Part shown: positions 43,039-56,518 of the stretch, piece after piece | How positions within the stretch are numbered: position 1 is the stretch's first letter | Layout of the letters: every line of letters starts with the position of its first letter | Assembly (NCBI GenBank): GCA_030530215.1 | Contig: JAUMVJ010000005.1 | Coordinates: 1-64,000, forward strand | DNA length: 64,000 nt | Direction: 5' to 3' | DNA from: Coriobacteriia bacterium | GTDB lineage: Bacteria; Actinomycetota; Coriobacteriia; Coriobacteriales; Eggerthellaceae | Made by a program: the position numbers and the translations under genes | Notes under the pieces: model-generated | The model's database searches: none | Told to the model about the DNA's origin: nothing | Seen by the model: the letters and a program-made list of their open reading frames with translations, nothing else

Positions 43039-45255
43039 CTACTTGACTTTAACCTTGACGGTGACGGTCTTGGTGGCGGCGTTGTAGTTGCCGTTGCCGG
43101 CTGCCTTAACCACGACCTTGACCTTGTAGGTGCCTTTCTTGGTCTTCTTCTTGACGGTGATCTTGCCGTTGGAGGCGACGCTCAGCTTGGCGGAGCCGCT
43201 CTTCTTGGCGTAGGTCACCTTGCCCTGGGCGCCCGTCACCTTGATGGCACCGGAGACCTTTTGGACCTTCTTCTTCACCTTGGCCTTTTTCACGGTCTTG
43301 GTGGAAGCCTTGGCGGTGAGGCTCTGGTTGGCCTTGGCGATGGTGAATTTGCTGCTTGCAGTGTCCTTGTAGCCGCCAATGCCGGTGATGGTGATGCTTG
43401 CCGTGCCTGTGTTGGTGTTGTTGACGTAGCTTAGCGTGTAATCGGTGCCCTGGCTGAGCGTTTTGCCGTCAAGGGTAACGCTCACCTTAGGCTGTCGAGC
43501 CTTGCCATTGTAGGTGCAGGTACCGCTGATGCTGATCTTGGCATTGGAGAGCGAGGCAACCTTGCTGGCAATTGCTTTCTCAGCGTTTACCAGGGTGTCG
43601 ATATTCGTAACGAAGCCCTTAACGTCGGAGCAGAGCGCATCGTAGGCGCTGCGCTGAGCGGCAACGGCGGCCTCGTCGGAGGTATCCATGCTTGCGATGC
43701 CCTCGTTCACCTCGCTGGCTTTAACCATTTGCTCAAGATCGTAGATGGTCTTGCAGCCCGAAGTATGGCCGATGGTGTAGCCGACGCTTATATGGGTGAT
43801 GTTCGGGTCTTTGGTGGTTATCGTGTAATAGCCCTCGCTATCGCGATTCTTGAAGCTAACGTAGTCGGTTTCAAAGTCGGCCCAGCTGTAGCTCGTGGTG
43901 GTTTCGCCTTTTTTGTTGGTGGATGTTTGCGGGTTCAGCTGCAAAGACGTCGGATCGTATTTAACCAGCTCCGTTTTGTCAGACTTGTTCTTCACGATGT
44001 CATGATTCTCTGCGGAGGTGGTGGAACCGCCCAAGGCATAGATGCTGAAATCGGTGGGTACCGAGGCGCCGCTGCGATCCTGGAGCTTGTAGTAGTGCTT
44101 GATGGTATAGGTACCGTCGTCGTTCTTGGTCACTGACGTGCTGTCGAGCGGGTTGCTGGAGACGTCGATGGAGGAATTGCTGGTGTTGTTCTTTTCGCCA
44201 TCGATGGTGATCTTCACGTTGTCGGCGATGGTTTTCACGTAGCCATCGTTGACCGAGCTCATGATGGCCTCAACGTAAGGGGTTGAAACCAGGGTGGCGC
44301 CGGTAACGGTATCAAGGTCTGATGTTGCGTCGGAGCCGCCGTTGAGCGAGCTGGCATAGGCCTGCAAAGTGCGCTGCGAAATCATGGATGCGGTTGCATA
44401 TGCCCATTTGTCGCGGTTGGTGGAGGCCATGTTGCCCGTGTAGGACGCATCGTCGTCGTAGCTAGTGTCGGCAACGCAATTGTCGATGTAGTTGTTCGCG
44501 GTGTCGCTTCCGTCAACTGAGCCATCTTCGCCGATAGTGAAGTAGGTGTCGAAGTAGAGCCCGTTTTCAGTGCCAATTTGGTAACGAACGCGAACCAGGT
44601 TGATGTCTTGGTAGTCGCCGAGGGTGATGGTGCCCTTTTCGTCCCAGTTAGCGCTGTTGGAGGCAACTTCGTAGCTCATGTCTTTCCCGTCGGAATCCTG
44701 ATTGACGGCATTATCGGACACGCTCATAAGGGTGACCGCATTAACGCTGTAGCCAGCGGAGTTGGCGCCGGTCAAAGAAGCGGTGTACACGCCATCGGAC
44801 TTCTTCTCCGCGTTGAAGTTAACACCCTTTGGCAGATATCCGTTGATGTAGACCTTGTTATGGCCGGAGCGCATGTAGCCCCAGGTGCCAGCGAAGGTGT
44901 CGTTGGCGCTGCTCATATCGATGGCGGTCATGGTTCCAGATTTATCGTAGGTGATTTTGGTGTAAACGCTGTAGCCCAGGAAGTGCGCGCCGTTATCGGA
45001 GTTCGCGTAGCCGCGGTAGGTCACGCTGCTGGAGCCGTCCGAGTTCGTTTTCTGATCGACCTTTTCAACGGAGCCGATGTCCAGGCCGTCGGAGGTTTGG
45101 CCGTCTTTACCGAAGATGACCATGTTGTCGTTGCTGTATTCGTAATGAGCGAACGCGGCGGCAGGTGCCAGGGATAGGGCAAGGCCGCAGGTTACGAGCG
45201 CGCAGCAAGACTTTTTGCTCAAAGTTCCGAGCTTTGGGAGTGGAGTATACTTCAT
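43039..45255 (-). CDS. Large secreted protein with a flavinylation-like motif and a C-terminal lysine-rich module
   Basis: A 738-residue exported protein. A signal peptide (~1-36, ending AFA) is followed by a beta-rich region of unknown family. Then comes LDTVTGATLVSTPYVEAIM (~305-325), which fits the Dxx[S/T]GAT motif where ApbE attaches FMN. The C-terminal part has an MBG/Ig-like segment (CTYNGKARQPKVSVTLDGK) and a ~98-residue basic module rich in VKKAKVKKKVQKV-type sequence. That module is identical in DNA to the end of the gene at 45925. The ApbE gene is about 5.4 kb away. Function is inferred only: an extracellular redox or surface protein. Confidence 0.65.
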   Translation of the reverse strand: MKYTPLPKLGTLSKKSCCALVTCGLALSLAPAAAFAHYEYSNDNMVIFGKDGQTSDGLDIGSVEKVDQKTNSDGSSSVTYRGYANSDNGAHFLGYSVYTKITYDKSGTMTAIDMSSANDTFAGTWGYMRSGHNKVYINGYLPKGVNFNAEKKSDGVYTASLTGANSAGYSVNAVTLMSVSDNAVNQDSDGKDMSYEVASNSANWDEKGTITLGDYQDINLVRVRYQIGTENGLYFDTYFTIGEDGSVDGSDTANNYIDNCVADTSYDDDASYTGNMASTNRDKWAYATASMISQRTLQAYASSLNGGSDATSDLDTVTGATLVSTPYVEAIMSSVNDGYVKTIADNVKITIDGEKNNTSNSSIDVSSNPLDSTSVTKNDDGTYTIKHYYKLQDRSGASVPTDFSIYALGGSTTSAENHDIVKNKSDKTELVKYDPTSLQLNPQTSTNKKGETTTSYSWADFETDYVSFKNRDSEGYYTITTKDPNITHISVGYTIGHTSGCKTIYDLEQMVKASEVNEGIASMDTSDEAAVAAQRSAYDALCSDVKGFVTNIDTLVNAEKAIASKVASLSNAKISISGTCTYNGKARQPKVSVTLDGKTLSQGTDYTLSYVNNTNTGTASITITGIGGYKDTASSKFTIAKANQSLTAKASTKTVKKAKVKKKVQKVSGAIKVTGAQGKVTYAKKSGSAKLSVASNGKITVKKKTKKGTYKVKVVVKAAGNGNYNAATKTVTVKVKVK
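43049..43345 (-). repeat. 297-bp exact copy of 45935-46231
   Basis: The C-terminal module of the two secreted proteins is the same over 297 consecutive bases, silent sites included. It ends abruptly within the coding frame at TGGCGATGGTG. Such identity implies recent duplication or gene conversion of a domain cassette. Confidence 0.9.
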
Positions 45256-45600
45256 ACGATCCTTTCTGTAGTGGCTGTGGTGAGCCCGCGGAATGGAGGG
45301 GCTTCCTGCACTACGCCAATAGATTGCAGGAAGCTTTTTTGTTGGTGTTCGCGCCGCCTAAAGCGCAAAAGTCGTTAAAAAATAAGAGAGAAAGGATGAG
45401 GCCGTTAGATTAGCCTCGGGAAAAGAAAAAGCTTTGCATGCTGGAGCAGGCAAAGCACAGTTAATGCACGGCTATATAACCACCCCCTTTACCCTGGTGA
45501 GCAAACTGAATATTGCAAAGCCTATGTTTGGTGCCCTGCAAAACAGCCGCAACCAAGGCGACTCGGGGGTCGGATTCCGCCGACACTTTTAAGACCGACG
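45256..45600 (-). promoter_or_regulatory. Long structured leader of the secreted-protein gene
   Basis: The minus-strand leader contains an intrinsic terminator at 45422-45457: GCTTTGC, a loop, GCAAAGC, then TTTTTCTTTT, about 165 bases before the start codon. The ~150 bases upstream are rich in potential stems (for example GTCGGCGGAATCCGAC). Promoter-proximal termination suggests attenuation or a riboswitch, or a separate small RNA. No known riboswitch class could be matched by eye. A plus-strand terminator (GCTTCCTGCA/TGCAGGAAGC then T6) sits at 45301-45340, opposite to this leader. Confidence 0.5.
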
Positions 45601-45604
45601 AAAT

Positions 45605-45620
45605 GTTAGCATAGGTTAAC
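45605..45620. promoter_or_regulatory. GTTAGC-N4-GTTAAC site
   Basis: A 6-4-6 motif, GTTAGC-ATAG-GTTAAC, at the upstream end of the leader of the secreted-protein gene (43039-45255). It belongs to a group of sites spread over the flavin cluster. Confidence 0.5.
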
Positions 45621-45818
45621 TTTAAAGACGAAGAGGAATTTTAAGAAGTTTCTAAATTTATGCTGGTGGTTTATCGGGCTTCTTTTACGCGCCTTGTTTC
45701 TTGCTTGCTCGTGGGGCTTGCAGGGTTTTCGGCGGCTTGTGCGTTCCTGGCGTGGCTTTGCGGGCGGGTCTGGCCTTGGTTCTGGCGACATTTGGTGGCA
45801 TGGCAGCGCGCAAAGAAA

Positions 45819-45845
45819 GAGGGCGCAGCTAAAAGCTGCGTCCTC
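45819..45845 (-). terminator. Terminator of the second secreted-protein gene
   Basis: Minus-strand stem GAGGACGCAGCT / AGCTGCGCCCTC around TTT, followed by TTTCTTTG. It lies 80 bases beyond the stop at 45925. The remaining bases of 45621-45924 hold no supported gene. Confidence 0.65.
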
Positions 45846-45924
45846 CCTGATAGTTAGATTTACTGTCGGGCTAACTAGAGGGGCAAGTTGCCTTTCTAGC
45901 TTGTAGCAGTGCGGTTAGTAAACC

Positions 45925-47853
45925 TTATTTCACCTTAACCTTGACGGTGACGGTCTTGGTGGCGGCGTTGTAGTTGCCGTTGCCGGCTGCCTTAACCACG
46001 ACCTTGACCTTGTAGGTGCCTTTCTTGGTCTTCTTCTTGACGGTGATCTTGCCGTTGGAGGCGACGCTCAGCTTGGCGGAGCCGCTCTTCTTGGCGTAGG
46101 TCACCTTGCCCTGGGCGCCCGTCACCTTGATGGCACCGGAGACCTTTTGGACCTTCTTCTTCACCTTGGCCTTTTTCACGGTCTTGGTGGAAGCCTTGGC
46201 GGTGAGGCTCTGGTTGGCCTTGGCGATGGTGTAGCTCTGGCTCACAGCGGAAGTGTCGCCCTCGGCATTCCATGCGTAGCCCTTAGCAGGTGCAACTTGA
46301 GCAGTATAGGTGCCTGCGTTGGTCTGCTTCCCGCTAACGGTGTAGCCTGCGCCGTCCTTGAAGGGCGACTGCTGCTTGCCGTTGTAGGTGAGCTTAGTGG
46401 AGCCCGCAGTTGGCTTTGCGATCACCTTGACAAGGTTGTTAAGAGCCTCAGTGACGTGCTTGATCTGCTGGCTGCAAGCAGCTTCGGTGGCGTCGTTTTT
46501 GGCGAGCAATTCCTCGGCTTCACCAAGCTCGATCTTAAGGTTATTCCAGGTTTTACTGGTGTAGTCTTTCTCGGTTAAAGCTGCACCCTGATCGTAAATA
46601 GCCTGAAGCTTCTGCTTCGTGTTTTCTGTGACGAGGGTTCCATCATCAATGTTGCTTTCAGAGATGGAGAACAAAGAAGTCGTATAGTCTTCGTAGCCAA
46701 GCGCATGGACGGTGAGCTTCCAGTAGCCCGTGCCATCGTAGCCTTCAGGGAATTGGCAGCGAATGGAGTCAGTTAGGCCCAGCTGAATATGCATTTTTTT
46801 ATGCATCCAGTTATCAGCAGCAAACTTAGTGCCGAAGGTTTGAACAACGTTGGTACCGGTGGAGTCGTTTCCATAGTAGGTCCAGGTTACCGATTGAAGA
46901 TTGGAACCAAGGTCGCCATAATCGCCATCAAGGTCAACGCGAATCATCTCGCCAAAAGCTCCAGGCTCAACGTCTCCTCCAATTTCGGCGACGATTGGAT
47001 AGATTTTGCCGGCTTTATCTTGGTCCGAGGCTGCTTCGTAACCCTCTTTAGTCGTCTCGGTGACTTTCTTCAAAGAGCTTTGATCTTTAATACCGGAACC
47101 GGTTAGGGATTCGACGGCGGCCGAGAAGCTAAAGCTGCCGTCTGCATTTTCGGTTGCGGTTTTTAGGCCATGGGTGGTTGCGTCTACGTCGGCGATTGCC
47201 GTGTAGGACTTAAGAACATTTTCAGTGTAGCCGCCAGTAAGGGTGCCACCGTTTTCTACGACAGCGTAGCCCTCTTTTTCACGGTCGGTCTTGAAGGCTT
47301 CGAATTCAGAGGTCTTTACTTTGACAGGGACATACTTGAGGCCGTAAACATCGTAGGTTTGAAGGGTGTATACAACGCCGTTATAGGTGCAGTAGCCCTT
47401 AGCAACGCCGCTCACTTTCGCTGTTTTGTATTCAACGGTTTCACCACTAGTGGTGGTAAAGCTTTTTCCGTCGTCGGCCCAATGGGAGATTGCAAAGTCC
47501 TTTTTGTTGCCGTTATCGTCCTGGGCATGGATGGTGGCGTTGCACTGGAAGCTGCCGCGATGGAGTCCATGGTTGGTCGTAGCGCGAGACACTGTGTCAA
47601 AAGCGCCGCGGTCGTACTGTCCGCTGGAGTCGGTTTTGTCGGAAGTCTCGGAGCTTCCTGCTGCCAGGACGTCTTCGCCGGCCCAATACTCGGCCCAGCT
47701 GAGGCCTGCGTAGCAGTAGGTGTAGTCGTCGTCGCTTGTGGTTTCAGCGGCGTTTGCCTGGCTTGCGTTGATCAATGCCGTGGAAGACATCGACAAAGCC
47801 AGAGCGCCGGCAAAGAACAACCTTGCCGGCTTGGTTGCAGCGATCTTTATCAA
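45925..47853 (-). CDS. Secreted protein with Tp47-like N-terminal region and C-terminal lysine-rich module
   Basis: A 642-residue exported protein with a signal peptide (~1-35). The N-terminal half contains YTYCYAGLSWAEYW (~43) and FDTVSRATTNHGLHRGSFQ (~84), sequences I associate with the Tp47 penicillin-binding lipoprotein family; this assignment is tentative. A Gly is replaced by Arg in DTVSRAT, which otherwise looks like a flavinylation motif. A helical region (~430-480), an MBG-like domain (~485-540) and the same 98-residue basic module as the neighbouring secreted protein follow. GAAAGGAGG precedes the ATG. Both proteins are probably wall-associated. Confidence 0.6.
   Translation of the reverse strand: MIKIAATKPARLFFAGALALSMSSTALINASQANAAETTSDDDYTYCYAGLSWAEYWAGEDVLAAGSSETSDKTDSSGQYDRGAFDTVSRATTNHGLHRGSFQCNATIHAQDDNGNKKDFAISHWADDGKSFTTTSGETVEYKTAKVSGVAKGYCTYNGVVYTLQTYDVYGLKYVPVKVKTSEFEAFKTDREKEGYAVVENGGTLTGGYTENVLKSYTAIADVDATTHGLKTATENADGSFSFSAAVESLTGSGIKDQSSLKKVTETTKEGYEAASDQDKAGKIYPIVAEIGGDVEPGAFGEMIRVDLDGDYGDLGSNLQSVTWTYYGNDSTGTNVVQTFGTKFAADNWMHKKMHIQLGLTDSIRCQFPEGYDGTGYWKLTVHALGYEDYTTSLFSISESNIDDGTLVTENTKQKLQAIYDQGAALTEKDYTSKTWNNLKIELGEAEELLAKNDATEAACSQQIKHVTEALNNLVKVIAKPTAGSTKLTYNGKQQSPFKDGAGYTVSGKQTNAGTYTAQVAPAKGYAWNAEGDTSAVSQSYTIAKANQSLTAKASTKTVKKAKVKKKVQKVSGAIKVTGAQGKVTYAKKSGSAKLSVASNGKITVKKKTKKGTYKVKVVVKAAGNGNYNAATKTVTVKVKVK
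45935..46231 (-). repeat. 297-bp exact copy of 43049-43345
   Basis: Second copy of the C-terminal cassette; see the entry at 43049. It lies at the same reading frame and end position relative to the stop codon. Confidence 0.9.
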
Positions 47854-47946
47854 GATCGCCTCCTTTCTCTCTTCTTAAAGCTCGCGCTTTTGCCAGGCTA
47901 AGCAGCCACTAGGCAATGGCTGCGCAAAAGACCTTGCTTTAAGTTT

Positions 47947-47996
47947 GTTAGCCAGAGCTAACTTAATATGACTATTAGATGTTAACTGTGGTTAAC
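47947..47996. promoter_or_regulatory. Paired GTTARC-N4-GYTAAC sites
   Basis: Two 6-4-6 palindromic motifs 34 bases apart: GTTAGC-CAGA-GCTAAC (47947-47962) and GTTAAC-TGTG-GTTAAC (47981-47996). They lie 94-143 bases upstream of the secreted-protein start at 47853, where a promoter is expected. The leader between them and the gene can fold into a nested hairpin (TTTTGC…GCAGCCA/TGGCTGC…GCAAAA). Confidence 0.6.
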
Positions 47997-48058
47997 AGTT
48001 GGTCAAGGGGTGAAATCAGCGAAATTGAAAATCTTGGATATACGGCGCTGTAGGCGGG

Positions 48059-48847
48059 TTAAAGAAGTGCACAAAGAAACAAGAACGCCGCGCCGAGAGC
48101 AAGGGCTGCCATGTCATTTGGCCCAAGCTTGTAGCCGCGGAAGCAAGTTCTGTCGCTCGTGACCCCATACTCCCTATTCGCTATAGCCAAGCTAAGCGTT
48201 TCTGAGCGGTGAAAGGCGCTGGTGAATAGCGCGGTGATCGTAGGGATTTGAGCCTGAACAAGCTTTGCTGGGCTTGCATCGCGCGTTGAAAAATCGGCCC
48301 CTCTGGCTACTTGCGCTTTGCGGATCCTCTGCAATTTCTCGGAGAAACTGGGGATAAAACGCAGCGCCATGCCCAGACCGAGCGCAAGATCGTCCACTTT
48401 CACGCCGATGTGCTTAAGCGGCGAGCATAAAAGCGCGGTTGCGTCGGTAAGCTCTGTAGGCGAGGTGGTGCGCATGAGCACCGAGGTGGCAAGAAGAATG
48501 CAGACAAAGCGCACCGCCGACTCGCAGGCGAAGTGCAGACCCTCCGAACTCAGGCCGATGCTTCCCGCTTGCCACCAGATTTCCCCACCAACAACGCAAA
48601 GGCAGTCGAAGACGAAGACGAATACGATAAGCCCCGCAAAAGGCTTGAGGCTACGAAGGGTTTGCGGTGCGGAAACTCCCGAGGCGGCCAAAATGCCCAG
48701 GCTTGCCGCGCATAGAACAAGGAACCCCAGGGCGTCCTGAGCCAGGAAAGCCCCGATCATGAACAAGAGGACGCCGAGCATCTTGCTGCGCGGGTCAAGA
48801 CGGTGCATAAGGCTCGATCCCGCCTGGTAAACGCCAAAGTCGCTCAT
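48059..48847 (-). CDS. ecfT: ECF transporter transmembrane component (EcfT)
   Basis: A 262-residue scaffold subunit of an energy-coupling factor transporter, with about five membrane helices. The coupling-helix motif appears as RKAQVARGADF (~180). It begins SLMHRLDPRSKMLG, typical of EcfT/CbiQ. The ATG at 48847 overlaps the end of the upstream S-A fusion gene by 4 bases. Together with that gene it makes a complete ECF module (S, A, T). In this context the cargo may be a flavin or its precursor. Confidence 0.85.
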   Translation of the reverse strand: MSDFGVYQAGSSLMHRLDPRSKMLGVLLFMIGAFLAQDALGFLVLCAASLGILAASGVSAPQTLRSLKPFAGLIVFVFVFDCLCVVGGEIWWQAGSIGLSSEGLHFACESAVRFVCILLATSVLMRTTSPTELTDATALLCSPLKHIGVKVDDLALGLGMALRFIPSFSEKLQRIRKAQVARGADFSTRDASPAKLVQAQIPTITALFTSAFHRSETLSLAIANREYGVTSDRTCFRGYKLGPNDMAALALGAAFLFLCALL

Positions 48848-50184
48848 TGCGCCACCTCTTTGCTTGCGAGCAGTCCGGCAAGCTGTGCGCAAAGATCTTC
48901 TTCTGAAGCCGAAGGACGAACGGGGAGCCCGGAGTTTTTGAGTTTTTGCGCAAACTCAAGCGCAAAGGGGAGTTCGAGCCCTTCGTTGGCAAAGGTGGCG
49001 CCAGCCTGGGAATTTTGCACAAGTTTGTGCGGCGCTTCCTGTAAAACGATGCGACCTTTGCTTACAAGGGCAAGGGAATCGCAGGCAAAGGCATCGTCCA
49101 TGGAGTGGGTAATGAGCACAACGGCTTTGCCTTCGCTGGCAAGCCTGCGGCAGTGAGCCATGAAACGCTTGCGCGCACAAGGGCTGAGCATCGCCGCGGA
49201 TTCATCGAACACCAGGGTGGCGGGGGACATGGCGATAAGCCCCGCTGTTGCCACCTGCTGCTTTTCTCCGCCGGAAAGCTCGGCGACAGGTCGATTGGCG
49301 AGTTCGGAAAGGTCCAGGCCGGAAAGCGTTTCGCCTACAATGGCACGCATCTCGCTGCGCGGGACGTCGCGGTTTTCCAAGCCGAAGGCGCAATCGTCCT
49401 CAACGATGGAAGAGACAATTTGGTTGTCGGGATTTTGGAAGGCGATGCCGGTGAAACCAGCGATGCGTGAGTCGGCTGCATCGCACGGACTAGCTGCGCC
49501 GCATGGGCAAATTGCGCTGTTCGGATTAGCCGCGTTGCTTGGCTCGCCCCCTAGCGGAAGCAGCCCTGCTATCTTAAGGGCGAGGGTGGTTTTTCCCGAG
49601 CCGTTGCGCCCGACCACTGCTGTGATCTTACCTGGCTCAACGGCGAGCTCTTCCCCTTCAAAACGATAGGGCCTGGCGGTGGGCGTGGGCACGGCGGCAA
49701 CAACCCCCTGGGCAACAAGCCCGGTTAGAAACCCGGTGATGCAGGCGGCAAAGGCCAGCACAGGCAGCGTTAGGAAGACCGCCGTGGTGGAAAGGAAGAA
49801 GGCCGCCACCGCAAGCTGCCCCGTGTTGTGGAGGATGGCGGCAACCATGCTGGTGGGAACAAGGTCGATCCAGGGGATCGCGCGGCAGACGAGCATTCCT
49901 GCGAAGGCCAAAAGGGTGCCGCCCGCACTGTAGGCCAGCATTAAGGGCGAGCCAAACAAAAAACCCGAGGCCAATACCTTGATGAGCATGACAAGGGTGG
50001 CGCTGCGCACATCGCAGAGGCAAAGCGCAATAAGGACGGCGATGTTAGCGAGCCCTAGCTTGATACCCGGTACCGCAAAGGGCAGTGGAATCATGGTTTC
50101 CAGGTAGCTTAAAACCAGGGCAAGGGCCGACATAAGCGCGACTTGGGCAAGCCTTCTGATGCGTACGATACGTTGCTGCTCCAT
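48844..50184 (-). CDS. Fused Gx/EetB-like S-component and ECF ATPase
   Basis: A 446-residue fusion. Residues ~1-170 are a membrane domain of the Gx transporter (heptaprenyl diphosphate synthase component I-like) family, beginning ALMSALALVLSYLETMIPLP. From ~185 an ABC ATPase follows: Walker A as VGRNGSGKTT, Q-loop as AFQNPDNQIVSS, signature as LSGGEKQQVATAG, and Walker B as LVFDESAAML (Ser in place of the usual Pro after DE), with the H-loop in LITHSMDD. S and A subunits are normally separate genes. The single ATPase would have to act as a homodimer. It is cotranscribed with ecfT and the NusG-II/ApbE genes. Confidence 0.82.
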   Translation of the reverse strand: MEQQRIVRIRRLAQVALMSALALVLSYLETMIPLPFAVPGIKLGLANIAVLIALCLCDVRSATLVMLIKVLASGFLFGSPLMLAYSAGGTLLAFAGMLVCRAIPWIDLVPTSMVAAILHNTGQLAVAAFFLSTTAVFLTLPVLAFAACITGFLTGLVAQGVVAAVPTPTARPYRFEGEELAVEPGKITAVVGRNGSGKTTLALKIAGLLPLGGEPSNAANPNSAICPCGAASPCDAADSRIAGFTGIAFQNPDNQIVSSIVEDDCAFGLENRDVPRSEMRAIVGETLSGLDLSELANRPVAELSGGEKQQVATAGLIAMSPATLVFDESAAMLSPCARKRFMAHCRRLASEGKAVVLITHSMDDAFACDSLALVSKGRIVLQEAPHKLVQNSQAGATFANEGLELPFALEFAQKLKNSGLPVRPSASEEDLCAQLAGLLASKEVAQ

Positions 50185-50223
50185 GCGGGCTCCCCTGCGT
50201 TGCTGCGCGGCAATCGGCCGCCC

Positions 50224-50694
50224 TTAGCGGCTACTTGCGTCGAAGCTGTCGGCTTTGGAAGTGTCCATCGATCCGGATTTGCCTTCGTCGGATACGATTT
50301 CGATCCAGAGTTTATGGGGCAGGCAGATGATCTGCTTGTCGGCAGTGCTGATGGTGCCCTGGTGCACGCAGTCTTGGTTGTCGCAATCGGCGCTTTCAAC
50401 GCGCACCTCGCCGTTTTTCACCACAACGGTGTTGGTGCCGTAGCTGGTGGTGAAGGTTTTGGTGGTGTCTTCGGCCAGGCTCAGCTTGGTGGTGCCGCCG
50501 TCACCGTCGTGCACGAGAGCGGAAGTTCCCGTCCCAGCGGAAGCGTTCGACAAAAGCACGAAGCCCCAGGCGAACACGACGACGGCAAAAATCACCGCTA
50601 CGGCAAGGACGCTGCGGTTTTTCTTCTGCTTGTAGCCCATGGTTGCAAGCGCCGCCTTGGAGGTTGGATTGATGTTTTGTTTGAACAAAATCAT
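50224..50694 (-). CDS. NusG domain II-containing membrane protein (EetA-like)
   Basis: A 156-residue protein with one transmembrane helix (~29-50) and an external NusG-II-type beta domain (~70-140). The domain signature is DCDNQDCVHQGTI, then IICLPHKLWIEIV. Such proteins recur beside Gx-family and ApbE genes in flavin-based extracellular electron-transfer loci. Its start follows the ApbE stop by 2 bases, so the two are translationally linked. A biochemical role is not known; an assembly or electron-transfer partner is likely. Confidence 0.8.
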   Translation of the reverse strand: MILFKQNINPTSKAALATMGYKQKKNRSVLAVAVIFAVVVFAWGFVLLSNASAGTGTSALVHDGDGGTTKLSLAEDTTKTFTTSYGTNTVVVKNGEVRVESADCDNQDCVHQGTISTADKQIICLPHKLWIEIVSDEGKSGSMDTSKADSFDASSR

Positions 50695-50696
50695 GG

Positions 50697-51746
50697 TTAC
50701 AGCACCTCGAAGGGGGAGTTGTCGGTGGTGGACACTTTGTCTTTGCTGTTGACGACCAGCCCCTGGATGTCGGGGTGGCTTTTGAGGAATTCAAGCGCTT
50801 TGTCGCGCCCGAGCAGGAACAAAGTGGTGGCGTAGGCGTCGCCGTCGATGGATTTCTCGGAGTAGATGGAAGAAGCAAGAAGGTCGGTTTTGGCAGGATA
50901 GCCCGTTTTGGGGTCGAGGATGTGGTAATACATCACGCCGTCCTTGGTGAAGTTGCGCTCGTACAAACCGCTGGTAACGATGGATTTGCTGGCCGCCTCG
51001 CAGGAGGCGATCACGTTTTCACTCCCATCGCTGTTGGGGTCGTACACGCCCACCTTCCAATTGCTCCCGTCGGGCTTGGTTCCCAACACGTACACGTTGC
51101 CGCCCAAGTTCAAGCAAGCGCTTTCGCAACCGGCTTCTTTGAAAAGCTCGGCCAGGTCGTCGGCGATGTAGCCCTTGGCAATGCCGCCTAGGTCGAGCTT
51201 TGCCTTGGGGTCGGCCAGGGTAACGGTGGTGCCATCGACCGCGATGTTTTTGTAGTCGATGTGCTTGATTGCTTCCTTCAACTTTTTATCGGAGGGCTTA
51301 ATGCCTTCGTTGAAATCCCACAGGGTGCTTGCCGCGCCGATAGAGATGTCAAAGAGCCCGTCGGTTTCCTTGGAGTATTCGAGCGACTTCAAGATGATGT
51401 CGGCGGTTTCTTCGGCCACGGTAACGGGTTGGCCCTTGGCGCTGTTGATCTTGGAGATGTCGCTTCCCTCGATGGTGCGCGAGAAGATGTTCTCGAAGTA
51501 GGTGCAGCGCTCCTGCGCCTGGTCGAGCACGCTTTGCTCGCAGTAGGCGCTCAAGGTGATAACCGTGTCGAAGGCGAAGAAGGTAGTTTCGCAAGGATCG
51601 CTTGACGTGGAGCTTGAGCTAGAGCCGGTGCTTGAACAGCCTGTCAGGTAGGCCAGGGATAAGCTGGCGAGCGTGCTTGCGCCAAGCAGGGCGAAGCTGC
51701 GGCGCGTGAGGTTTGGGTTGCTGTTTAAAAGTGCGCTAGCGCTCAT
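50697..51746 (-). CDS. apbE: FAD:protein FMN transferase (ApbE), lipoprotein
   Basis: A 349-residue enzyme that attaches FMN from FAD to a Ser/Thr of target proteins outside the cell. The N-terminus has a twin-arginine-like TRRSFALLG stretch and a lipobox LTGC (~36). Family motifs are FFAFDTVITLSAY, GLFDISIGAASTLWDF, LDLGGIAKGYIADDL and CLNLGGNVYVLG, with the magnesium-site region near DGDAYATTLFLLG. Targets nearby carry DxVSGAT motifs (53018, 53545 and perhaps 43039). It heads the minus-strand unit that runs through NusG-II and the ECF genes. Confidence 0.93.
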   Translation of the reverse strand: MSASALLNSNPNLTRRSFALLGASTLASLSLAYLTGCSSTGSSSSSTSSDPCETTFFAFDTVITLSAYCEQSVLDQAQERCTYFENIFSRTIEGSDISKINSAKGQPVTVAEETADIILKSLEYSKETDGLFDISIGAASTLWDFNEGIKPSDKKLKEAIKHIDYKNIAVDGTTVTLADPKAKLDLGGIAKGYIADDLAELFKEAGCESACLNLGGNVYVLGTKPDGSNWKVGVYDPNSDGSENVIASCEAASKSIVTSGLYERNFTKDGVMYYHILDPKTGYPAKTDLLASSIYSEKSIDGDAYATTLFLLGRDKALEFLKSHPDIQGLVVNSKDKVSTTDNSPFEVL

Positions 51747-51900
51747 GCTCTTCTTTCTTCGGGTGGCGCGGGCTTGTCAGGCGATACAGGTTCGAGCGAT
51801 GCCGTCGAGTTTGGCCGAAGCTCAGAAAACCCCGAAGCCAAGTAGCCCCGACGAGTTTGCGGACACCGCTTCCCGCAGTCTCCTCGTTTGCAATGAAAAA

Positions 51901-51916
51901 GTTAACCTAGTTTAAC
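51901..51916. promoter_or_regulatory. GTTAAC-N4-TTTAAC site upstream of apbE
   Basis: GTTAAC-CTAG-TTTAAC, ~155-170 bases before the apbE start. It overlaps the stop codon of the polyferredoxin gene, whose last codons are constrained by it. It fits the pattern of the other cluster sites. Confidence 0.5.
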
Positions 51917-53025
51917 ATCCAGGGCAAGGCAAAGGGGAGGACATCTTGCGGGGAAGGCACGAAGCGAAGCGCGCCCACCAGCCAGCAACCGATAAGAAGC
52001 AGGGCGGCCTTAACGAGTATGCTTGCCCAGAATGAGCCGCTGATTTGGAATTTCGGTTTGAGCGTTTTGGTGTCGACCCCCAAGCGCAGCACCGATATGT
52101 TGCCAAGAGGGCAGTTAACGGCGCAGTCGCCGCAGGCAATGCATTCGCCCGACTGCAGGCTTCCTTTGTCGGGCCAAATGTCCACCGGGCAGTTTTTGCG
52201 ACATTGTCCGCAGCTTTTGGGGCAGCGAGCTTCGTTGCGGTCGCGGATGGCGAAGGGCAGCATGGGCAGCAGCGAGAAAATGGCGCCCATCGGGCAGAGG
52301 AACTGGCAAAACGCCCGTTTGCGTAAGGCCATAAGCGCAACGATTGCTGCCAGGAGCGCAAACGCCCCTGTGCGGATACCTTCGGTGCTTCCTGCTACGA
52401 TTCCTGCAAAAGCCGTCCAGGGGCTGTAGCTTGATACCTCGGAATAGGAGGCCAGAAAGCACAGCGCGCAGATGCCCGCCAGCACCACAAACTTCAAAAG
52501 TTGGAGCACTTTCACCAGCGGTTCGGGGAAAGTGAGATCAGGGATCCCGATTTTATGGCGAAGTGCGGCGGTGGCGTCATACACTAGGTCGCCCAAGAAG
52601 CCGAAAGCGCAGGCGTAGCCGCAAAAAAAGCGACCCATGATAACCGTCGCGCCAACAACGACGATGAGCAAAAGTACGAAAGAGGTCAGCTCCACGGGGC
52701 TTAAAGCGCCGATTTGGCCGGCGATGTATTTAACGCCCGAAAACGCGGCGGAAAAAAGTCCAGGTGCTAAAACGAAGAAGAGTGCCTGCACGGCATAGCG
52801 CAGGGCACGATGCCTGAACAGGCGCGCTTTGCGCTGGGTTGCCTTGGAGATGCGTTTTTTGCCGAGTTTGGCTTGCGTGTTTGGCTGCGCCTTTTTGGTG
52901 ACGCTGTCGTTCGTGCTGGCTGGGGCGCTTGGTGTTTGCACAGGCGCGCTTGCCTGGGAGGTAGTGTCTGCCTTGAGGGCGCCGCTTGTCTGCGCGGCGT
53001 TGTTTGCTTCCTGCATGCTATTCAC
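51907..53025 (-). CDS. Membrane polyferredoxin (NapH/NosR-type 4Fe-4S protein)
   Basis: A 372-residue electron-transfer protein. A low-complexity N-terminus (~1-60) is followed by about five to six membrane helices with cysteine motifs at their ends (CGYACAFGF, FCQFLCPMGA). Two ferredoxin-type clusters follow (CPKSCGQCRKNCPVDIW, CIACGDCAVNCPL; ~270-320), and a last helix ends the protein. It probably carries electrons from the cell interior or quinones to the flavinylated proteins outside. Its start overlaps the stop of the FMN-binding gene (53018) by 8 bases, which suggests coupling. Confidence 0.88.
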   Translation of the reverse strand: MNSMQEANNAAQTSGALKADTTSQASAPVQTPSAPASTNDSVTKKAQPNTQAKLGKKRISKATQRKARLFRHRALRYAVQALFFVLAPGLFSAAFSGVKYIAGQIGALSPVELTSFVLLLIVVVGATVIMGRFFCGYACAFGFLGDLVYDATAALRHKIGIPDLTFPEPLVKVLQLLKFVVLAGICALCFLASYSEVSSYSPWTAFAGIVAGSTEGIRTGAFALLAAIVALMALRKRAFCQFLCPMGAIFSLLPMLPFAIRDRNEARCPKSCGQCRKNCPVDIWPDKGSLQSGECIACGDCAVNCPLGNISVLRLGVDTKTLKPKFQISGSFWASILVKAALLLIGCWLVGALRFVPSPQDVLPFALPWMLN

Positions 53026-53464
53026 CGGCCTCCTCTTTTTGGATGGCCTTTTTCACCGCGTTGATCATGCCCGTGCTGGTGAAAGTGGCGCTTGAAACGG
53101 TATCCACCTGGGGGCTTTGAGCTTTCTTGATGGCTGCAGGGATGCCCTGGCACATTTTGAGCCAAGCCTCGTCCTCGTGGCTCACGTCAACGATGTCCAC
53201 CGATTCGATGTAGCCGTCTTTGATGGTGACGCTCATGGTTACCGTTCCGCCGTAGCCCTTGGCGGAGCCTTCCCAGGTGCCGTCGTTTGCGTAGGGGCCG
53301 CGGTTACTGGCGTGCTCGGCTGCTTCGATTTGCTCTTGCACGGCGGCATCGGCCGCATTGCGATCGGACGCCCAGGCGCTTAAGCCCGTGACCGCCGCAA
53401 TGACGATCGCCAGGTTCACGAATTTGAAAAAAGTGTTGCGCAGCAGCGCCAAAGTCTTGAGCAT
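53018..53464 (-). CDS. FMN-binding domain protein (RnfG-like), short
   Basis: A 148-residue protein with one N-terminal helix (~13-31) and a single FMN-bind domain (~60-145). The flavin attachment motif reads VDTVSSATFTSTG: Ser replaces the usual Gly of SGAT. It should be exported and flavinylated by the nearby ApbE, then accept electrons from the polyferredoxin whose gene overlaps it. It diverges from the larger FMN-binding gene at 53545. Confidence 0.85.
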   Translation of the reverse strand: MLKTLALLRNTFFKFVNLAIVIAAVTGLSAWASDRNAADAAVQEQIEAAEHASNRGPYANDGTWEGSAKGYGGTVTMSVTIKDGYIESVDIVDVSHEDEAWLKMCQGIPAAIKKAQSPQVDTVSSATFTSTGMINAVKKAIQKEEAGE

Positions 53465-53500
53465 GAGCCTTCTTTTCTGTTAAAAGTAACAAGGTAAAAA

Positions 53501-53516
53501 GTTAACCAACTCTAAC
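53501..53516. promoter_or_regulatory. GTTAAC-N4-TCTAAC site between divergent FMN-binding genes
   Basis: GTTAAC-CAAC-TCTAAC sits in the 80-base gap between the divergent starts at 53464 and 53545. A single bound regulator there could affect both genes. Confidence 0.55.
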
Positions 53517-53544
53517 AAAATTTCAAGAGAGGCTTTTGAAATTC

Positions 53545-54966
53545 ATGGCGAAGAGCAGCAAGGAAAATAAAGCGGGTAACAGTGCGCCCGCCGGCGCATC
53601 AACCGACAAGGCAGCTGGGGGGTCAGCCCTTGCAGGCACTGCCCCCGCTGCGCGCAAGGCTCGCGTTTCCGGGTTTTTAGCCGGTGCGGGCCGTTCCGTT
53701 TTGTCGGTTGGCTTTTTGCTGCCCGCCGCGCTTACCTGCTTTGCCGTTGGAGTGACGGCCTCGAACTACTCGCCTTTGATCTTCGACCCCAGCCAGTATG
53801 CTCAGCAGCAAAGCTCGGTGAAGAAGATGCTCGAGGCGGGGGAGCTTGAGCTGCAAGTCGTCGATGAATCAAAGCGCACAACCGACACTCAAACTTCCGA
53901 GCAAAAGGCCAAGGCCGCCGCATCGAGCAATTACGGAATGAAGGCTCCGGCGGGTGGTTACACCGATGGCGTCTACACCGCCAAAAGCTACGGCTACCGC
54001 AGCTACATCACGGTGCAGGTAACCATCAAGGGCGGCAAGATCTCGGGCATTAAGGTGCTCTCCGAAAGTGAGGACCGCCCTTACTTCTCCAACGCGAAAG
54101 CCGTTATCAGTCGCGTGATTTCGAAGCAGGGCACCAACGTCGACACCGTTTCAGGCGCCACCTATTCTTCCAAGGGCATTCTTGCTGCGGTAAAGAAATG
54201 CCTGATCAAAGCTTCTAAATCTAAAGCTACTAAGGAAAAGGTGGAAGAGAACAAGCCCGATACATCGCAGGATACTGCTGATGACGGCAAAACAAGTTGG
54301 GGCGATAACAGCTCGGATACCAAGGGCGACACCGGCTATCAATGCAGGCTCTACGCTAACGGAACATGGACCGGTGAGGGCGAGGGCTACGAAGTGCTGG
54401 TCGATCATGGCGACACCAAGATCACCTTGCAGGTGACAACGCTCGACGACAAAATCACCGGTATCAAAATCGTCTCGCATGCGGAGGACTTCCCTTATTT
54501 CCGCTACGCGACCAGGGGCAAGGGCGCCAAACTTGGCGTGATCGAGCAGGTGCTGAACAAGCAAACATCCGATGTTGACGTGGTGTCGGGCGCAACCTAC
54601 TCTTCCAAGGGCCTGATGGCAGCGATTGCCGACGCTCTTGATAAGGCGAAAGCGGCGCTTGAAGAGCAGAGCAAGAAGGACGACGCCGACAAAGATGGCG
54701 GTAAGGATGATTCCGGCAAGGACGATTCGAGCTCGGACAAGGGCGATAGCGGCAAGGACGACTCTTCCTCTAGCAAGGATGATTCTGGCTCCAGCGGTAC
54801 CGACAAGGCCGAGTCTTCCAGTTCCGGGGCTTCTTCCAGTTCGAGCTCCGAGGCAAGCTCCAACAAAGGCGACGCCAGCAAGGAAGACTCCGGGGATGCC
54901 GACTCTAAGCAAAAGAGCTCCGATTCCGATAAGTCCGGCGCAGACGAAGAAAGCAAAGCTTCTTAA
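53545..54966 (+). CDS. Exported protein with two FMN-binding domains
   Basis: A 473-residue membrane-anchored protein. A basic cytoplasmic tail and one helix (~48-70) are followed by two FMN-bind domains (~135-222 and ~275-370), each with the full attachment motif (VDTVSGATYSSKG and VDVVSGATYSSKG). The last ~100 residues are Ser/Asp/Lys/Gly low-complexity, probably a wall-spanning stalk. It is likely the terminal flavoprotein of an extracellular electron-transfer chain, comparable to the PplA-type flavoproteins of Firmicutes. The ATG at 53545 is preferred to a TTG at 53536, which is too close to GAGAGG. Confidence 0.85.
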   Translation: MAKSSKENKAGNSAPAGASTDKAAGGSALAGTAPAARKARVSGFLAGAGRSVLSVGFLLPAALTCFAVGVTASNYSPLIFDPSQYAQQQSSVKKMLEAGELELQVVDESKRTTDTQTSEQKAKAAASSNYGMKAPAGGYTDGVYTAKSYGYRSYITVQVTIKGGKISGIKVLSESEDRPYFSNAKAVISRVISKQGTNVDTVSGATYSSKGILAAVKKCLIKASKSKATKEKVEENKPDTSQDTADDGKTSWGDNSSDTKGDTGYQCRLYANGTWTGEGEGYEVLVDHGDTKITLQVTTLDDKITGIKIVSHAEDFPYFRYATRGKGAKLGVIEQVLNKQTSDVDVVSGATYSSKGLMAAIADALDKAKAALEEQSKKDDADKDGGKDDSGKDDSSSDKGDSGKDDSSSSKDDSGSSGTDKAESSSSGASSSSSSEASSNKGDASKEDSGDADSKQKSSDSDKSGADEESKAS

Positions 54967-55783: not shown

Positions 55784-55804
55784 GCCTCAATGCTGGAGGA
55801 AGCT

Positions 55805-56518
55805 ATGACAAACGAAAACGATCAGGCGAAAGCCAATGAAGTGGTTGAAGCCTTGGATTCGGTGGACGAGCCCAATTTCGACCTAGGGTCGCTGATGGAA
55901 GATGGTATTTTAGGCGAGCTTTCCGAGGAAGACGTGCAAAGTGATCTGCACGAACCGGGGGAGGCCCTTATCGAGGCTGAGCGTGAGGACGTGGGCTATG
56001 TGCCGCAGGTCGGCATGGTGCCCATCAAACGCCAGGGCGGTAAGACAACCTACCTGGTGCCATCGCGCGACGATCTTGTTATCAACCGCGACGCTTTCAG
56101 GCTGGTACGCGATTTGAAGCTCGCTTTCGACAAGCTGGCTATGCCCATCTGTAAGGAATGGGGCGTTACGCACAGCCAATTTGAAGCTCTGCGCGAGATC
56201 AGCCTTGAGCCCGGAATGTCGGCCACGGAGCTTTCGCGGCGCTTGAATTTGCAGCGATCGAACACGGCTTCGCTTTGCAAGAAGCTCGCCGAGAAGGGCC
56301 TCATCTCGATTTCTCCTAACGTTCACGATCGTCGCGGCATCAGCCTTAACCTGACCGACGAGGGCAAGGATCTTGTTGAAGGGATTGAGCGTGAGCTTAT
56401 TGCCGTGTTCGACATGAACCTTTCGGCAAGCAGGCGCGACACTTTCGAGAAAATCATCGTCGGCATGACCGCCATGCGCGAGCTTCTGGCTGAAATGCGC
56501 ACCGAGCAAGTTGAATAG
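55805..56518 (+). CDS. MarR family transcriptional regulator with acidic N-terminal extension
   Basis: A 237-residue regulator; typical MarR proteins are ~150 residues. The winged helix is in the C-terminal part: MSATELSRRLNLQRSNTASL (~138-158) as recognition region and VHDRRGISLNLTDEG (~175) as the wing. The first ~85 residues are acidic and predicted disordered, and could bind a partner. The ATG at 55805 has GGAGGAAG upstream. It lies next to the flavin electron-transfer cluster and is a candidate to bind the TTARC-N4-GYTAA sites there. Confidence 0.85.
   Translation: MTNENDQAKANEVVEALDSVDEPNFDLGSLMEDGILGELSEEDVQSDLHEPGEALIEAEREDVGYVPQVGMVPIKRQGGKTTYLVPSRDDLVINRDAFRLVRDLKLAFDKLAMPICKEWGVTHSQFEALREISLEPGMSATELSRRLNLQRSNTASLCKKLAEKGLISISPNVHDRRGISLNLTDEGKDLVEGIERELIAVFDMNLSASRRDTFEKIIVGMTAMRELLAEMRTEQVE

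Follow-up and report, generated by a model that had tools for sequence, protein, structure and literature searches.

The 64,000-nucleotide window analyzed here (positions 1 to 64,000 of contig JAUMVJ010000005.1, from a metagenome-assembled genome of a Coriobacteriia bacterium that is 63.6% complete) harbors, at 43039-54966, a flavinylation gene cluster that encodes two large secreted proteins and whose genes share a predicted DtxR-type box with ferrous iron uptake genes elsewhere in the genome. All open reading frames of the original prediction, which had been made from the sequence alone, were confirmed at their positions; domains were assigned with Pfam, and NapH and the regulator were typed with NCBIfam models (Table 1). 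Read from left to right, the minus strand encodes a 738-residue protein, a 642-residue protein, a CbiQ-type T component, a fusion of Gx with an ATPase, a NusG_II protein, ApbE, a NapH-like polyferredoxin, and a small FMN_bind protein, and a two-domain FMN_bind gene lies on the plus strand, divergent from the small one. The three FMN_bind domains of this locus are the only ones detected genome-wide. In the small protein, the motif reads DTVSSAT where close homologues have DVVSGAT. This motif, the Tp47 identity of the 642-residue protein, and the link to iron through boxed feo genes go beyond the original prediction.

Table 1. Genes and predicted regulatory boxes of the cluster (FAD, flavin adenine dinucleotide; FMN, flavin mononucleotide; ECF, energy-coupling factor; ABC, ATP-binding cassette)
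Feature	Position	Strand	Basis or location
738-residue secreted protein; apparent divergent FMN_bind, C-terminal Lys-rich Ig-like module	43039..45255	-	Family, hhalign, Pfam matches of homologues
642-residue secreted Tp47-family protein; PBP-Tp47_a (residues 41-218), PBP-Tp47_c (226-403)	45925..47853	-	Pfam E 1.5e-52 and 1.1e-54
ECF transporter T component, CbiQ family, FmnA-like role	48059..48892	-	PF02361 E 2e-33
EetB-type S component (PF07456, Gx) fused to ECF ABC ATPase; probable FAD exporter	48844..50184	-	Pfam; PMC9973259
EetA-type NusG domain II (NusG_II) membrane protein	50224..50694	-	PF07009 E 4e-26
ApbE FAD:protein FMN transferase, lipoprotein, lipobox LTGC	50697..51746	-	PF02424 E 7e-81
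NapH-like membrane polyferredoxin, transmembrane electron carrier	51907..53025	-	PF12801 (Fer4_5) E 5e-16, Fer4; NapH TIGR02163 E 8e-16
Membrane-anchored single-FMN_bind protein, non-canonical motif DTVSSAT	53018..53464	-	PF04205 E 1.6e-14
Membrane-anchored protein, two FMN_bind domains (DTVSGAT, DVVSGAT)	53536..54966	+	PF04205 E 4e-28
Predicted DtxR-type box GTTAGCATAGGTTAAC	45605..45620		350 bp upstream of 738-residue gene
Predicted DtxR-type box GTTAGCCAGAGCTAAC	47947..47962		94 bp upstream of Tp47-family gene
Predicted DtxR-type box GTTAACTGTGGTTAAC	47981..47996		128 bp upstream of Tp47-family gene
Predicted DtxR-type box GTTAACCTAGTTTAAC	51901..51916		155 bp upstream of apbE
Predicted DtxR-type box GTTAACCAACTCTAAC	53501..53516		Divergent promoter region; 37 bp and 20 bp from two FMN_bind genes

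System class of the cluster

The original prediction had read the ApbE, NusG-II, Gx/ECF, polyferredoxin, and FMN-binding genes as a flavin export and flavinylation chain; all of these genes are there, and their content supports the chain. Its label for the locus, "FLEET-like" (for flavin-based extracellular electron transfer), holds in part. Like the Listeria locus (Ndh2, EetA, EetB, FmnA, FmnB, and PplA), the cluster has an apbE/fmnB gene, EetA (NusG_II), EetB (PF07456), further ECF parts for FAD export, and membrane-anchored FMN_bind proteins; PF07456 is the EetB family, FAD export in Listeria needs EetB, and EetB-ATPase fusions are known (PMC9973259). However, the presence of Ndh2 in the cluster is the operational mark of a Listeria-type locus (PMC8238504), and no Ndh2 NADH dehydrogenase was found among the open reading frames of the cluster, either in their list or with Pfam, so that the locus is not FLEET in the strict sense. 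It also differs from the Listeria system in lacking quinone-synthesis genes, in having the NapH-like polyferredoxin in the place of Ndh2, and in adding wall proteins of the Tp47 and 738-residue families.

Given a PF12801 protein encoded together with FMN_bind and ApbE genes, we class the locus as a NapH-type flavinylation cluster whose FAD exporter is of the EetA/EetB/ECF kind. The NapH-like flavinylation systems of Meheust et al. (2021, PMC8238504) likewise combine a membrane NapH-like Fe-S protein, separate FMN_bind proteins, and ApbE, and the multi-flavinylated clusters described there already show large wall-binding proteins (SLH, FIVAR, Rib, and LysM). The same work ties flavinylation to iron assimilation in other bacteria; flavinylation clusters, their NapH-like form, large wall-bound proteins, and iron links are all already known. 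It does not describe large proteins of the Tp47 family, a family of divergent FMN_bind proteins, or a DtxR-type box in common with feo.

A predicted DtxR-type box shared with feo genes

The motif shared by the cluster genes is GTTAR-N6-YTAAC, with GTTARNNNNNNYTAAC occurring exactly five times in the 64 kb, always between or upstream of genes of the locus, where about 0.24 copies would be expected at even base composition. The shared regulatory motif that had been claimed is thus recovered, and the claimed co-regulation of both secreted proteins with apbE is supported as far as shared boxes show. Beyond these five, the whole genome contains three exact boxes at feoA-feoA-feoB and one elsewhere, nine in total, compared to three copies of the reversed pattern; most boxes with one mismatch elsewhere in the genome (e.g., within a recF-like gene) look like chance. 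Two overlapping near-boxes (L050, G000:C4:63858-63887) also stand before an operon encoding a membrane anchor and a molybdopterin oxidoreductase (DMSO-reductase-like).

The DtxR consensus is TTAGGTTAGCCTAACCTAA (PMC7762939). Our own dissection of this consensus finds TTAG-N6-CTAA in it twice, overlapping, and because the shared box fits this dimer half, we predict that it is a DtxR-type dimer box. As in the DtxR/IdeR iron regulons of Actinobacteria, TTAG-N6-CTAA half-site palindromes stand in front of iron uptake genes, here together with the flavinylation cluster, and the genome encodes a regulator of the DtxR/MntR family, a homologue of which lies divergent from the boxed feoA-feoA-feoB genes in a Blautia. 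The difference from these regulons is that the box is a single-dimer site, that it is common to Bacillota and Coriobacteriia and covers flavinylation clusters, and that the regulator is short and MntR-like. Two other candidates were considered: the MarR gene at 55790-56518 was set aside as regulator, as the box matches a DtxR-type dimer site and is present at feo as well, and a Fur box (7-1-7) precedes clusters in 17 of 48 loci with 9 expected and 16 in the largest shuffle, a weak signal.

These 48 loci, found in named genomes by a search that used only the Tp47 part of the 642-residue protein and was thus blind to neighbors, extend the box well beyond the window. GTTAG-N6-CTAAC is found before cluster genes in 22 of them exactly and in 37 with one mismatch; without mismatches, spacing 6 is the only one to give this signal, the other spacings between 0 and 11 being found in zero to two loci, and unrelated genes of the same loci carry the box in 3/48. 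Ten whole genomes contain the exact box 74 times and the reversed pattern 10 times. In relatives, the box precedes feoA-feoA-feoB in a genome of the same family and in Collinsella, Agathobaculum, Blautia, and Fusicatenibacter, lies near a feoA in Faecalibacterium, and is also found before ZIP-type, flavodoxin-like, and other genes (names other than feo being read from sequence). Exact boxes stand ~100 bp or less before an enolase gene in Anaerobutyricum hallii and Blautia massiliensis (L216 and L229), which is unexpected for a metal regulon. At L203, L221, L226, and L231, the box precedes genes for small multi-spanning membrane proteins that resemble ECF S components, with T components adjoining two of them; these may possibly be uptake systems for an iron compound.

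The type of regulator raises the question of which metal is sensed. A manganese sensor of the MntR type, with a locus that serves a manganese response or manganese reduction and not iron, would fit a regulator that lies nearest to MntR models (NCBIfam E 5e-20 versus 2e-11 for DtxR) and has no C-terminal extension, as well as the boxed ZIP-type transporters of relatives. Yet feoA-feoA-feoB is boxed in six genomes from two phyla, with a feoA near the box in a seventh, and the boxed flavodoxin-like gene is typical of iron sparing. We therefore regard manganese as an unlikely purpose of the locus and iron as the most likely metal.

The two large secreted proteins

Searches of the order and the family for the N-terminal part of the 738-residue protein found six homologues, giving a family from seven genomes. 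In all seven, the gene adjoins a small FMN_bind gene and one for a NapH-like protein, and most are near ApbE too. The motif site is kept throughout the family (DTVTGAT, DTISGAT, DTVSAAT, DTISGAT, DTVSAAT, DTISGAT, and DIVSSAT), and a chance match to D-x-x-[ST]-G-A-[ST] appears in 2% of shuffled versions of the 738-residue protein. Two homologues pass the FMN_bind cut-off of 22 bits with 23.0 and 24.2, precisely over the motif half of the domain, and two further ones match it weakly (Pfam). When the family profile was compared by hhalign with 112 FMN_bind domains, with 100 column shuffles as a control, residues ~313-337, the helix part with DTVTGAT, scored 44.9 versus 18.4 for the best shuffle, and residues ~94-118, the preceding beta part, scored 30.0 versus 22.3. 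In the simplest reading, an insertion of ~150 residues appears to split a single FMN_bind domain of the protein.

As an ApbE motif, the seven residues D-x-x-[S/T]-G-A-[S/T] are enough for modification, and a Gly-to-Ala exchange in one substrate leaves ~50% flavinylation (PMC12052999). DTVTGAT thus matches the motif completely, and Ala at the Gly position, as in some family members, should be tolerable. Since DTVTGAT sits at the true position of the FMN_bind motif, the 738-residue protein is a good candidate ApbE substrate, and the proposal that DTVTGAT is its attachment site is plausible, given the conservation in the whole family and the homologues that pass the Pfam cut-off at the same site. 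Between the box and the start of this gene lies an unusually long leader of 350 bp (45256-45600), which matches no Rfam family of RNA regulatory elements.

The second protein, of 642 residues, carries both Tp47 domains, a and c (PF14889/PF14888), and matches the Treponema pallidum Tp47 of PDB entry 1o75 by sequence with an E value of 2e-17. Its structural model (predicted local distance difference test [pLDDT] of 83, from 44 sequences) aligns to 1o75 at a Z score of 23.2. Tp47 is the only family that a VIA-align comparison of the model placed well above background, a result that does not speak against other folds. Domain content and fold thus make it a member of the Tp47 family, and it also shares the D-x-V-S-R-A-T signature, which in Treponema Tp47 reads DAVSRAT. 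It differs from Tp47 in being Sec-secreted, in its Lys-rich C-terminal module, and in its place in a flavinylation cluster under a DtxR-type box; in its gut relatives, FMN_bind, Shr-like, FIVAR, or SLH domains are found in addition. Penicillin binding and beta-lactam turnover have been reported as biochemical properties of Treponema Tp47 alone. The 738- and 642-residue genes have 306 bp at 99.0% identity in common at their 3' ends (43040-43345 and 45926-46231), which points to a recent copy or gene conversion, and at least five further contigs of the genome also encode the Lys-rich C-terminal module of both proteins.

The original prediction had taken both secreted proteins for ApbE substrates, with FMN also on the DTVSRAT of the Tp47-family protein. 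In its favor are the conserved Thr of D-x-V-[ST]-x-A-T in Tp47_a and in a diverged Tp47_a repeat from the same clusters (DAVSSAT or DAVTSAT; hhalign 89% to Tp47_a), and the residual flavinylation after the Gly-to-Ala exchange. However, DTVSRAT does not match the ApbE motif: [FY]D-x-V-[ST]-R-A-T-x-N-H-G is found in 45/45 readable loci, with an invariant Arg where the ApbE motif has Gly, and the same Arg is found in Treponema Tp47. Moreover, Tp47_a has the 1o75 fold and is not detectably related to FMN_bind (hhalign probability of 4.6%, over nine motif residues only), for which reason we rejected homology between the two. Because of the invariant Arg, the like motif in Treponema, and the unrelated profiles, DTVSRAT as an attachment site is unsupported and reads as a Tp47_a signature, not as an ApbE motif; flavinylation of both proteins appears quite improbable to us, and the 738-residue protein is the one we retain as a candidate substrate.

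The association of Tp47-family genes with flavinylation genes extends across the 48 loci, which are spread over Lachnospiraceae, Faecalibacterium, Ruminococcus, Agathobaculum, Thomasclavelia, and Coriobacteriia. Flavinylation genes lie in the flanks of 44 of them (FMN_bind in 41, NapH-like in 41, ApbE in 35, EetB in 23, and EetA in 20), with an FMN_bind or ApbE gene within 4 kb of the Tp47 gene in 40/48; the four loci without such genes are three from Anaerostipes and one contig fragment. An independent Pfam search added two more genomes in which Tp47 lies beside flavinylation genes. Among nine such Tp47-family proteins that were scanned, an FMN_bind domain is fused in six and a Shr-like hemoglobin-interacting domain (Shr-like_HID) in five, and the wall modules include FIVAR, SLH, and Big_2. 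PF14889 is rare across Bacillota, with 1 of 299 sampled genomes, and is above cut-off in 12/250 genomes of one family. The presence of Tp47-family genes beside flavinylation genes in gut Bacillota and Coriobacteriia is a new observation, which gives the family a genomic context unreported in the open-access literature that we searched: there, we found no link of Tp47 with flavinylation or extracellular electron transfer (weak evidence, as it covers open-access texts only), and the flavinylation surveys that we consulted do not name Tp47.

Could the two proteins be ordinary wall proteins, such as adhesins or beta-lactam-binding proteins, that merely neighbor a redox locus? Other secreted proteins of the genome carry the same C-terminal module as these two, and the Tp47 family bears the name of a penicillin-binding protein. 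Against this stand the shared box, the restriction of the 738-residue family to such clusters (7/7), and a Tp47 family that lies beside flavinylation genes in 44/48 loci and is fused to FMN_bind, and we consider chance neighborhood highly improbable compared to a role of both proteins in the redox system.

A proposed role in iron acquisition

We propose, with moderate confidence, that the cluster encodes a surface electron transfer system that is derepressed at low metal, most likely iron, and that supplies FeoB by reducing ferric iron outside the cell or iron bound in heme or other complexes. Extracellular iron reduction is probable because the box is common to the cluster and to ferrous iron uptake genes; both this reduction and the covalent FMN are predictions from sequence. 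At low metal, a repressor of the DtxR/MntR family would leave the GTTAR-N6-YTAAC boxes, whose distribution is observed. FAD would then be exported by the EetB-ATPase fusion with the CbiQ-type T subunit, by analogy with Listeria EetB/FmnA, and ApbE would load FMN on the FMN_bind proteins, including the wall-associated 738-residue protein at the Thr of DTVTGAT. Electrons would cross the membrane via the NapH-like polyferredoxin, pass to the FMN proteins, and arrive at the wall by way of the 738-residue protein. The Tp47-family protein, in our scheme not flavinylated, would bind or position the iron-containing substrate or acceptor at the surface, a role suggested by its conserved place in the clusters and by the fusions of its family to FMN_bind and Shr-like domains. 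The resulting Fe2+ would enter through FeoB.

Several points weigh against this proposal. The cluster itself contains no iron transporter gene, so the link to iron rests on the shared box, and further members of the regulon may be missing from a genome of this completeness. Short DtxR forms without the SH3-like domain have so far not been Fe2+-responsive in vivo (PMC7762939), and because the regulator of the window genome is of this short, MntR-like form, the metal could be manganese. The 738-residue protein itself matches no Pfam family above cut-off, FMN_bind included, and its AlphaFold2 model, computed for the protein alone, was discarded at a pLDDT of 39, its structure not being predictable. 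Finally, related systems elsewhere also serve respiration.

The cluster could instead serve dissimilatory (respiratory) extracellular electron transfer for redox balance via external acceptors, with the box answering more generally to low metal or to redox state. Most NapH-like systems are linked to respiratory reductases (PMC8238504), extracellular electron transfer is the function given for the Listeria locus, with ferric reductase activity as its readout (PMC9973259), and flavodoxin-like and ZIP-type genes are boxed in relatives. However, eight of the nine exact boxes of the window genome belong either to this locus or to the ferrous iron uptake genes, and Pfam finds no terminal reductase domain (e.g., fumarate reductase-like) among the cluster proteins. 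A respiratory role thus seems rather doubtful to us, and iron acquisition remains the reading we favor. Flavinylated electron transfer is widely predicted in Gram-positive gut bacteria; a box that is shared with feo at strict spacing in two phyla suggests one concrete purpose, the acquisition of a metal, most likely iron, which is open to test in cultured species such as Collinsella aerofaciens, Faecalibacterium, and Blautia.

More tentatively, we speculate that Tp47_a-type domains, including the DAVSSAT and DAVTSAT repeats, could be a module with which flavinylated surface reductases handle iron, heme, or redox chemistry, and that ApbE may possibly modify these domains; in that case, Treponema Tp47, commonly known as a penicillin-binding protein, would derive from an iron acquisition reductase. 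Secreted proteins made of the diverged repeat (IPYADFY...DAVTSATKxKTR) are encoded at L206:3250-4086 (Faecalibacterium sp. I4-1-79) and L166:8658-9509, and the gene at L206, which is ~14 kb away from the Tp47 cluster, immediately follows a DtxR-type box.

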